Assembly (NCBI GenBank): GCA_021732085.1 | Contig: JAKFVQ010000019.1 | Coordinates: forward strand, 1-64,000 | Source: Candidatus Obscuribacterales bacterium | Lineage (GTDB): Bacteria; Cyanobacteriota; Vampirovibrionia; Obscuribacterales; Obscuribacteraceae | DNA: 64,000 nucleotides | Direction: 5' to 3' | In this document: positions 9,317 through 11,768 of the stretch, one piece after another | Position numbering within the stretch: position 1 is the stretch's first letter | How the letters are laid out: the number at the start of each line of letters is the position of its first letter | Notes under the pieces: generated by a model | The model's database searches: none | Told to the model about the DNA's origin: nothing | What the model saw: only the letters and a program-made list of their open reading frames with translations | Translations under genes and position numbers: made by a program

Positions 9317-9625
9317 ATGCTCGGATATGTCAGAGTAGCCAGCGTAAAAGATATCGCACCCGGTAAATGCCTTGCAGTTGAAGCCGGCGGCAACAAGATT
9401 GTGCTGGTCAACGCCGGCGGCAATATCTATGCGCTGGAAGACTCTTGCTCTCACCTGGGTGCGCCGCTTTCGCTCGGTTTTGTGGCGAAGGACAGCATCG
9501 CCTGCGAGTGGCACGGGGCTTGCTTCGATTTGAAAACTGGCGAGGCGCTCTCTGCCCCGGCTAAAGAAGCTGTGCCGGTCTTCGAGATCCGCATAGTAAA
9601 TGAGGAAATCGAGGTCCTAGTCTAA
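9317..9625 (+). CDS. Rieske [2Fe-2S] ferredoxin-like protein
   Basis: A small soluble Rieske protein of 102 residues, of the type serving as electron carrier for dioxygenases or nitrite reductase-like enzymes. The cluster ligands are visible as C44-S-H46 and C63-E-W-H66 in the usual CxHx(16)CxxH spacing. No signal peptide or membrane anchor is present, so it is cytoplasmic rather than a cytochrome bc/b6f subunit. The start ATG 9317 has a GGGGGG ribosome binding site seven bases upstream. It lies 12 bases behind typA. No partner oxygenase is adjacent, so its redox partner is unknown. Confidence 0.9.
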   Translation: MLGYVRVASVKDIAPGKCLAVEAGGNKIVLVNAGGNIYALEDSCSHLGAPLSLGFVAKDSIACEWHGACFDLKTGEALSAPAKEAVPVFEIRIVNEEIEVLV

Positions 9626-9688: not shown

Positions 9689-10180
9689 ATGAAAATTCCG
9701 GCTTCGCTCAAACAAAAAATGTATGTGGTTGTAGCGCTTGGAGCTCTGTCTCCGACGCAGGCCGAAGCGCAAAGTGCAGCAAGCCCTGATTCCTCGTCAA
9801 ATTCAGAATACGCGAATCGTCCAATTCCGCGCGGACTGAGATCTTCTTATGAGCGCCCAGAGGCAAGATTTCGAGAGTTGAAGCGAATGCTGGAGCGCAG
9901 AGCAGCCGCTAACGGTCCCACTGCCGACAGTTCGGATTCAGCGTGGTCCGCCCAGCATAGCAACAGAACCGGTCAGCAGGCGACACCTGTCGGTCGAAAA
10001 ACTGCAAAAACCGGTGCTCCGATTTCCAGCGGAGATGGGACTACTGCAGCTGGAACTAAAGGAGTTGTTTCTCAAAACGCGGGAAAAACACCGCTACCCG
10101 GATTGCAAAACGCTCTGGAACAATCTGACCAGCGAATTCCAAAATTAAAAGACCCCTGCTACGGCTGTGGTCGCGGATAG
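9689..10180 (+). CDS. Putative MNIO-RiPP precursor 1, exported, ends in CYGCGRG
   Basis: I do not recognise a named family. The 163-residue protein starts with a signal-peptide-like segment (MKIPASLKQKMY then a hydrophobic core, with an AEA-Q cleavage-like site near 25-28). Next come a Ser/Asn-rich stretch, an Arg-rich probable helix (about 55-72), a Ser/Gly/Thr-rich linker and the terminus CYGCGRG. The only two cysteines are C157 and C160. The gene 47 bases downstream encodes a paralogue sharing the same beginning (MKIPxSLKxKMY..ALGA) and the same CxxCGRG end while the middle differs. A DUF692/MNIO enzyme gene follows. The architecture of signal peptide, linker and terminal cysteines therefore suggests a ribosomally made peptide modified on its cysteines. 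This is inference. Confidence 0.65.
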   Translation: MKIPASLKQKMYVVVALGALSPTQAEAQSAASPDSSSNSEYANRPIPRGLRSSYERPEARFRELKRMLERRAAANGPTADSSDSAWSAQHSNRTGQQATPVGRKTAKTGAPISSGDGTTAAGTKGVVSQNAGKTPLPGLQNALEQSDQRIPKLKDPCYGCGRG

Positions 10181-10227
10181 AAGAAATTACGTTAGAGATG
10201 AGAGCCTTATTTAATTGGAGATTTGAA

Positions 10228-10608
10228 ATGAAGATTCCGCACTCACTCAAGGAAAAAATGTATTTGGCAATGGCTCTGGGCGCTTTTTGCCAGCTTGCCG
10301 TTGATGCAGAGCCAGAACTGAATTCGTCTTCCAGCAGTTCGACTAATTCGGCAAGCCGCGCTAGTAAGGCTGGGGCTCCGGCTACACAAAACACTGCGAA
10401 CGGCTCGACAAATCGTGCTCCGGCTGTGAACGCTGATGACCGCAGGCGTGCCCTTCGAGAACGCTTCGAGAAGATGCGCAAGAATCCAAATTTGCGCCGT
10501 GAAACTGTCAATGGTGCCCCAAAGAAAAGCAGCTCCCTCGAGTCTAAATCAGTGCAAACATCCGAAGCGATCAAAGCTCGTGAATGTGTGGAGTGCGGCA
10601 GGGGCTAG
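10228..10608 (+). CDS. Putative MNIO-RiPP precursor 2, exported, ends in CVECGRG
   Basis: Paralogue of the preceding gene, 126 residues from ATG 10228, which has GGAG about ten bases upstream. An in-frame ATG at 10198 lacks such a site and would spoil the match to the paralogue. Residues 1-27 resemble a signal peptide (MKIPHSLKEKMYLAMALGA). A Ser/Thr/Asn/Ala-rich region follows, then an Arg-rich helix at about 70-92, a Ser-rich stretch and CVECGRG with C120 and C123. The only other cysteine, C21, lies in the presumed signal peptide. The stop codon is one base before the start of the MNIO gene, implying translational coupling. I infer that it is a second substrate of the same enzyme. Confidence 0.65.
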   Translation: MKIPHSLKEKMYLAMALGAFCQLAVDAEPELNSSSSSSTNSASRASKAGAPATQNTANGSTNRAPAVNADDRRRALRERFEKMRKNPNLRRETVNGAPKKSSSLESKSVQTSEAIKARECVECGRG

Positions 10609-10609
10609 C

Positions 10610-11572
10610 ATGCTTTCATCGTCCAAAAAAGACGTTCTTTGCGGACTCTCACTGATGAATTCGCCTGATTTTCTTGCGGCCAGCCTGCCCCTATTTGATG
10701 ACGGGGAGGTTGAAGTTCTGGAGTGGAGCTTCGATGTGAGCTGGGAGAACAAGCTAGAAGACTGGGCTTCAGAGCTTGTGAGTTTCTACAGCATTGAGAA
10801 CAAATTGATTGGACATGGTGTCAATTTCTCCGTTCTTTCCGGGAAATGGTCAGAAGCCCAACAGGAATGGATCGAGCACTTTCGACAGGAATGCTCAAAG
10901 CATTCGTTTATGCATGTCTCGGAACATTTTGGCTTCTCTAGAGCCGGAAATGTAATTCAAACTAGTCCGCTCCCTGTTCCTTTTTCGAAGGGCGCTTTAG
11001 CACTGGGTGTTGAGCGGCTGAAGCTTATGTCCGAGATTGCGAAGGTACCGATCGGTCTAGAGAATCTTGGATTTGCATTCTCGCTGGACTGCGTAAAGGA
11101 GCAGGCAGATTTCATAAGCCAATTGCTGGAAAAAACTGATGGGTTTTTGCTTCTTGATCTGCATAATGCCTACTGCCAAATTGCTAATTTCAAAGTGGAC
11201 GCAGAGGATTATTTCGCACTTTATCCAATGGAACGAGTTCGAGAAATCCACATATCAGGCGGCTCCTGGTCTCCGGATAAGGATGGAAACTCAATACGTC
11301 GAGATACGCACGATCACGAAGTGCCTGATGAGGTTTTTGAGCTGCTCCTGCAAGTATTGTGGCGTTGCCCCAATCTCAAGGCTGTAATACTTGAGCGGCT
11401 AGGAAATACAATTCGCTCTCAAGATGAAGCCGCACGTTTCCGTTCCGACTACTTGCACATGAAAAAACTGATTCAACTTTTTTGTGCCGAAAGTTATACA
11501 GACGTCATCCCGCCATTAGTCTCTAATCGCCAGTCCATTCAAGGAAACACACAGGTAAGACAGCATGATTGA
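10610..11572 (+). CDS. DUF692/MNIO family multinuclear non-haem iron oxidase (RiPP maturase)
   Basis: The protein matches the DUF692 family (MbnB, TglH, ChrH and bufferin maturases), TIM-barrel enzymes that use two or three iron ions to rearrange cysteine or other residues in peptides. Family landmarks appear in order: H69 in GHG, H102 and SEH at 104-106, LEN (150-152), LDLHN (182-186), IH (213-214), DTHDH (232-236) and E262. The chosen start ATG 10610 has AGGGG six bases upstream and follows the precursor stop by one base. It gives 320 residues, slightly above the family norm of about 270-300. A longer reading from 10436 would overlap the precursor gene and is rejected. The 3' end overlaps the next gene by eight bases. 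Assignment to the family is strong; the chemistry performed is unknown. Confidence 0.9.
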   Translation: MLSSSKKDVLCGLSLMNSPDFLAASLPLFDDGEVEVLEWSFDVSWENKLEDWASELVSFYSIENKLIGHGVNFSVLSGKWSEAQQEWIEHFRQECSKHSFMHVSEHFGFSRAGNVIQTSPLPVPFSKGALALGVERLKLMSEIAKVPIGLENLGFAFSLDCVKEQADFISQLLEKTDGFLLLDLHNAYCQIANFKVDAEDYFALYPMERVREIHISGGSWSPDKDGNSIRRDTHDHEVPDEVFELLLQVLWRCPNLKAVILERLGNTIRSQDEAARFRSDYLHMKKLIQLFCAESYTDVIPPLVSNRQSIQGNTQVRQHD

Positions 11573-11768
11573 GGATGAGGAGCTGGCACGCTATCAAGAA
11601 ACCCTGATCCAAGCCGCTCTGTATGGTGACACTGATTCGCCGCTGAAAGACTTGTTGCTAGCTGATCATTCCTTGGCAGCGCAACACCTATGGATTCAAG
11701 GGTGGGAGGCTCGAATGGGCGACCTGGCAAGGTATTTGACACAGAACTGGGCTGTTGAAGCTGAATAG
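11565..11768 (+). CDS. Small protein overlapping the MNIO gene, candidate partner of the maturase
   Basis: A 67-residue, mostly helical, acidic protein whose ATG lies inside the last codons of the MNIO gene (ATGATTGA overlap), so the two are translationally coupled. MNIO enzymes usually need a second protein that binds the leader or the precursor (MbnC, TglI, DUF2063 proteins). The sequence has an LARYQ..L..A pattern near the start and a W....RM..LARYL segment near the end. These remind me of the short domain fused to the C-terminus of some actinobacterial DUF692 proteins, but I cannot confirm this without a profile search. A partner role is inferred from position only. Confidence 0.6.
   Translation: MIEDEELARYQETLIQAALYGDTDSPLKDLLLADHSLAAQHLWIQGWEARMGDLARYLTQNWAVEAE

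Follow-up and report, generated by a model that had tools for sequence, protein, structure and literature searches.

The window is a stretch of 64,000 nucleotides from Candidatus Obscuribacterales bacterium (GCA_021732085.1, contig JAKFVQ010000019.1). A cluster of four genes in this window raises the question of which modification a DUF692/MNIO enzyme would install on two small proteins that end in CxxCGRG, and to which known systems the cluster is related. The cluster and the gene that precedes it consist of the following features.

9317 to 9625, plus strand: Rieske-type ferredoxin (PF00355, 1.1e-21), possible operon member
9689 to 10180, plus strand: precursor 1 (A1-like), 163 aa, with leader MKIPASLKQKMYVVVALGALSPTQAEA, low-complexity spacer and tag KDPCYGCGRG
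10228 to 10608, plus strand: precursor 2 (A2-like), paralogue of precursor 1, 126 aa counted from the ATG parallel to that of precursor 1, with tag ARECVECGRG
10610 to 11572, plus strand: MNIO (DUF692) enzyme assigned to the ChrH/MelH subfamily (PF05114, NF050165), TIM barrel, 320 aa
11565 to 11768, plus strand: MelHc-like partner, separately encoded ChrH C-terminal helical-bundle domain by profiles, 67 aa

The four cassette ORFs (9689-11768) are located on the plus strand, 3' of the TypA gene and the Rieske ferredoxin gene, and apparently form one operon. The gene order was established from the translations, which agree with the initial annotation in the clustering of two precursors, a DUF692/MNIO enzyme and a small gene, in the single base between precursor 2 and the enzyme (10608/10610), and in the precursor ends that are exactly CxxCGRG (CYGCGRG and CVECGRG). 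The enzyme and the small gene had been described as sharing an ATGA-type overlap; the actual overlap is 8 bases (ATGATTGA). The promoter scan gave nothing beyond chance level.

The entire block is kept in full synteny in another genome of the same genus (G002, whose contig is also survey locus L054, Candidatus Obscuribacterales bacterium), where the precursors end in CLKCGRG and CEECGRG. The identities between both genomes are 95% for TypA, 90% for the Rieske ferredoxin, about 79-80% for the enzyme, 69% for the 67-aa protein, 51% for precursor 2 and 33% for precursor 1. The Rieske ferredoxin was considered as a candidate electron donor. Among the loci compared, it adjoins a ChrH-type enzyme only in the window and in G002, its link to these enzymes is confined to this genus, and the linkage is uninformative because everything around it is syntenic within the genus.

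The profile search that had been proposed for the 320-residue enzyme gave a clear match to PF05114 (1.6e-36, 126.4 bits against a cut-off of 25). The AlphaFold2 model of the enzyme (pLDDT 84) is a TIM barrel with TglH, MbnB and 3bww as its best PDB matches, and its LDLHN and D-x-H-D segments align with TglH. Nine positions (H69, H106, E151, D183, H185, H214, D232, H234, and E262) are invariant among 15 relatives, in keeping with the conserved His/Asp/Glu pattern noted earlier. The domain, the barrel and the ligand pattern together place the enzyme in the MNIO superfamily.

Within this superfamily, the best NCBIfam model for the enzyme is ChrH (NF050165, 8e-101), which ranks first by 70 orders of magnitude, compared with 4.6e-31 for BufB and 7.5e-6 for MbnB. 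Over the barrel, the enzyme shares 49% identity with MelH of Melainabacterium SJ512 and 44% with DybH. These similarities assign it to the ChrH subfamily as in PMC12636315, closest to ChrH, DybH, and MelH, and the earlier reading of the cluster as an MNIO-dependent RiPP-like cassette is upheld. The cassette is not filed as chryseobasin proper because its scores (337.7 bits for NF050165 and 12.9 bits for NF050125) fall below the equivalog cut-offs of 600 and 40. The host genome also encodes three other MNIOs (C7:131440-132222, C6:177952-178731, and C26:25554-26336; L001-L003). They are far better PF05114 matches, they share 32-34% identity with the window enzyme over part of the barrel, and they are read as putative bufferin/HvfB-like enzymes.

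ChrH-type systems were described in 2023-2025 (PMC10214503, PMC12636315). Members of the ChrH family have at their C-terminus a helical bundle (about 7.8 kDa), which Cyanobacteriota encode in a gene of its own, and MelH is inactive without this partner, MelHc (PMC12636315). The 67-aa protein corresponds to this domain. A profile built from the C-terminal domains that fused enzymes of Obscuribacterales carry matches it at 1e-7 (Z=100), and a profile of 22 split partners, built without the window and without G002, finds it as the sole window ORF (3.7e-9; next best 0.19). Its profile score is modest. The protein is predicted to form four helices (pLDDT 91). It has no Pfam match, and the fold search with its model gave no significant PDB match and hence no resemblance to DUF2063/NGO1945 or TglI. 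Judged from both profile matches and the four-helix prediction, the small coupled protein of the initial annotation is homologous to MelHc-type domains and is assigned as the split-off ChrH C-terminal domain, the MelHc equivalent.

Both precursors begin with MKIPxSLKxKMY, then continue with a hydrophobic segment and a site that resembles AxA (AEA/Q and VDA/E). This arrangement, assessed by eye, suggests a signal-peptidase I leader, and both precursors are probably exported as had been proposed. The spacers are rich in Ser, Ala, Asn, and charged residues, and the short carriers are probably disordered. The middles of the precursors have diverged between the window and G002 (to the overall identities given above) while both ends are retained; a kept tag on a drifting middle is as expected if the carrier is recognised by its tag alone. 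The sole Cys pair common to both precursors is the C-terminal CxxC tag.

The precursors had been regarded as an unfamiliar type that differs from chryseobasin-type substrates. This view is not upheld, as CxxCGRG is a variant of the CPxCGxG tag that ends the substrates of the ChrH subfamily, including long secreted Melainabacteria proteins with a separate partner (PMC12636315), and ChrA ends in CPACGMG (PMC10214503). The window precursors exhibit the CxxCGxG end of this subfamily without the Pro after the first Cys (CYGC and CVEC). A pattern search of the whole 4.79 Mb assembly for CxxCGxG followed by a stop gave four raw matches. Two are invalid (one has an in-frame stop and one ends in TGG) and the only valid ends are those of the window's two precursors. 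No orphan tags were therefore found outside the cassette in this assembly, which is 70% complete and may thus lack further tagged genes.

Genome contigs were searched for relatives. A single-protein query found no relatives; an alignment query found 227, of which 80 were kept. These 80 loci and 15 host-family loci were read for near-enzyme ORFs that end in C-x(2-22)-CGxG, and tags with spacers of two or three residues were counted with the window included and duplicates removed. The 79 ChrH-type loci contain 97 tags, where x of CGxG is M in 64, R in 15, L in 14, K in three, and Q in one. Pro is common in these tags and not universal, as 24 of the 97 (the window's two included) do not have it. 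No CxxCGxG-ending precursor was found when 17 further, distant MNIO loci (L001-L003 and L021-L034) were examined with 1.5 kb flanks. A close ChrH-type enzyme was found in 2 of 292 genomes phylum-wide versus 27 of 50 host-family genomes.

The search for CxxCGRG ends next to DUF692 genes that the initial annotation had suggested thus finds 15 R tags beside ChrH-type enzymes in four phyla. These phyla are Cyanobacteriota (Obscuribacterales and an uncultured cyanobacterium MAG, L079), Planctomycetota (a MAG, L065, with CPACGRG), Verrucomicrobiota (a Prosthecobacter MAG, L070, with CEGCGRG), and Bacteroidota (Bacteroidia/Bacteroidetes MAGs L072-L074, L082, and L107). R-tag presence requires at least seven changes on the enzyme tree, a quick tree with several weak branches. 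A single enzyme serves R and M tags (plus K or L) in the Bacteroidota loci and in L042; the loci where R and CGMG tags share one enzyme are L042, L072, L073, L074, L082, and L107. The exact 10-residue end of precursor 1 recurs in L042 on a precursor of 370 aa; its siblings at that locus end in CPACGMG, CPGMCGLG, and CNGRCGMG. Lys or Arg occurs at most three residues before the first Cys in 15 of 15 R tags, in 11 of 79 M, L, and Q tags, and in none of three K tags. The Fisher test for R and K against the rest gives 3e-8, which is taken as a lead and not as a p-value because the tags compared are related to one another and the same data had first drawn attention to the feature.

Several other tag forms were identified in the survey. 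The 305-aa and 337-aa precursors of L042 (the same locus as L130) have natural three-residue spacers (CPGMCGLG and CNGRCGMG), which match the artificial ring expansion CPAACGMG of DybA (PMC12636315). L073, L074, and L107 have three to four precursors per enzyme with tags that differ systematically within the locus (CGKCGKG, CEACGRG, and CPPCGMG, plus CPGCGMG in L073 and L107). Neighbours of Obscuribacterales ChrH-type enzymes, mostly 320-345 aa, end in CGxxxWWx(9-13)CGMG, where the first Cys lies about 16-20 residues ahead of the CGMG Cys. The loci with this end are L041, L043, L044, L048, L081, L110 (a 328-aa downstream precursor), L118 (a Cryomorphaceae MAG with CA in place of CG), L141, L142, L151, and L153. 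Such ends would form a natural ring of far greater size, or fold as a hairpin in which the cysteines come together, and the main texts of the ChrH-type literature (PMC10214503, PMC12636315) contain no description of them. L110 is the published mel cluster, as the computed masses of the LysC fragment LFPQPAPCPACGMG of its precursor (1388.62, and 1384.58 once 4 H are lost) equal the values in PMC12636315.

The chemistry of the relatives and the requirement for MelHc are established in the literature. ChrH-type products contain a macrocycle and a hydantoin with one thiol free or S-methylated (PMC10214503, PMC12636315), and the mel product is a -4 Da macrocycle/hydantoin at the tag (PMC12636315). 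In the path proposed for ChrA, the second Cys reacts first, where H abstraction leads to a thioaldehyde; the Gly amide then attacks, the amide of the next residue yields the hydantoin, and the first Cys closes the macrocycle (PMC10214503). In this scheme, the residue that follows Gly takes part through its backbone NH and not through its side chain. Arg is therefore chemically admissible at this position, given also that CGLG is a naturally accepted tag (PMC12636315). DybH recognises the tag alone, as demonstrated with GFP (PMC12636315).

We consider it highly probable that the window encodes a split ChrH-type (mel-type) cassette that makes a -4 Da thio-bridged macrocycle/hydantoin on CxxCGRG before export. 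By analogy with these relatives, each precursor would be bound in the cytoplasm by the iron enzyme at its C-terminal CxxCGRG tag, and the 67-aa helical protein would serve as the detached C-terminal domain of the enzyme, which is required in the mel system. The enzyme would carry out a four-electron oxidation of the second Cys, after which the amides of the next two residues, Gly and Arg, would convert the backbone to a hydantoin. Addition of the first Cys would give a thio-bridged macrocycle with a net change of -4 Da and one thiol free. The modified protein would then be exported via Sec/SPI with the tag at its C-terminus. An unmethylated product is predicted because MelH is the nearest tested split enzyme. 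The earlier expectation of a modification at the two C-terminal cysteines would agree with this chemistry. The main text of PMC12636315 contains no description of an arginine-bearing CGRG tag and no CGRG or Pro-less tag as a tested substrate.

The tag itself provides the ground for a different product of the same enzyme family, if Arg and the missing Pro divert the reaction to an S-methylated +10 Da product, a -36 Da shunt, or Cys oxidation without a macrocycle. We regard this outcome as unlikely. It is consistent with the product mixture of ArlAH and with the loss of the Pro-Ala turn that is thought to help, and ChrH gives +10 Da while DybH and MelH give -4 Da from the same CPACGMG tag, so that the enzyme sets the outcome. 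However, DybH tolerates CPPC and CPAAC rings, and R tags share locus and enzyme with CGMG tags in the loci named above. A Cys-modified peptide of the bufferin or methanobactin kind that binds metal or copper, as the initial annotation had suggested, appears very improbable. Bufferins are the largest MNIO-made families studied and bind copper (PMC12452194), and the host genome encodes three further MNIOs. However, the window enzyme resembles ChrH far more than BufB or MbnB, the Pfam search revealed no DUF2063 partner in the cassette, the tag is the only Cys pair that the precursors share, and the DybH product is without the UV-absorbing aromatic groups that methanobactins and bufferins contain. 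The metal-binding suggestion thus finds no support in the known products, which are macrocycle and hydantoin. A bufferin cassette was also rejected on its parts, as no DUF2063 partner was seen, precursor 1 has no Pfam match, and precursor 2 matches none of the bufferin families.

Under the preferred split ChrH-type reading, it is possible, although we hold it only tentatively, that CGRG tags are a distinct and recurrent basic subclass (defined by Lys or Arg just before the first Cys and Arg in the hydantoin) with repeated origins in the four phyla. One enzyme would then use them alongside CGMG tags and equip several exported proteins with rings that differ in charge and in purpose. The cassette extends the range of ChrH/mel tags to ends with Arg and without Pro, carried by short, low-complexity secreted proteins of Obscuribacterales. 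It also provides an easily assayed minimal set that consists of two LysC fragments of 9-10 residues, the enzyme and the 67-aa partner. What is conserved in the tag is the terminal CGxG, while the residue x and the placement of the first Cys vary; this pattern constrains the mechanism and helps the detection of further members.

The bufferin, HvfB, MbnB, and TglH enzymes share the TIM-barrel iron-enzyme superfamily with the window enzyme, but they are much less similar and have other precursors and partners (DUF2063, MbnC, and TglI). The dyb system of Dyadobacter crusticola (DybA/DybH, PMC12636315) has a 44% identical barrel, and recognition of the C-terminal tag alone and a -4 Da product would be shared by analogy, whereas the DybH C-terminal domain is fused and DybA is a lipoprotein that ends in CPACGMG. 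The chr system of Chryseobacterium (ChrA/ChrH/ChrI, PMC10214503) shares the enzyme subfamily, the C-terminal CxxCGxG tag and the SPI-type leader, whereas the ChrH C-terminal domain is fused, the chr product is S-methylated (+10 Da), and the window cassette is without the ChrI membrane protein and the ChrE and ChrP genes. The mel system of Candidatus Melainabacteria SJ512 (MelA1/MelH/MelHc, PMC12636315) is similar in its related host group (Melainabacteria/Obscuribacterales), its ChrH-type MNIO (49% identity), its separate helical C-terminal domain, its secreted precursors with a C-terminal two-Cys tag, and its order of precursor, enzyme and partner. The mel tag is CPACGMG versus CYGCGRG and CVECGRG in the window, and the mel precursor is a 34-kDa TPR protein versus low-complexity carriers of 126-163 aa. 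As read from the sequences, what differs here is Arg in place of Met or Leu and no Pro in the tag, together with short carriers that replace the TPR proteins.
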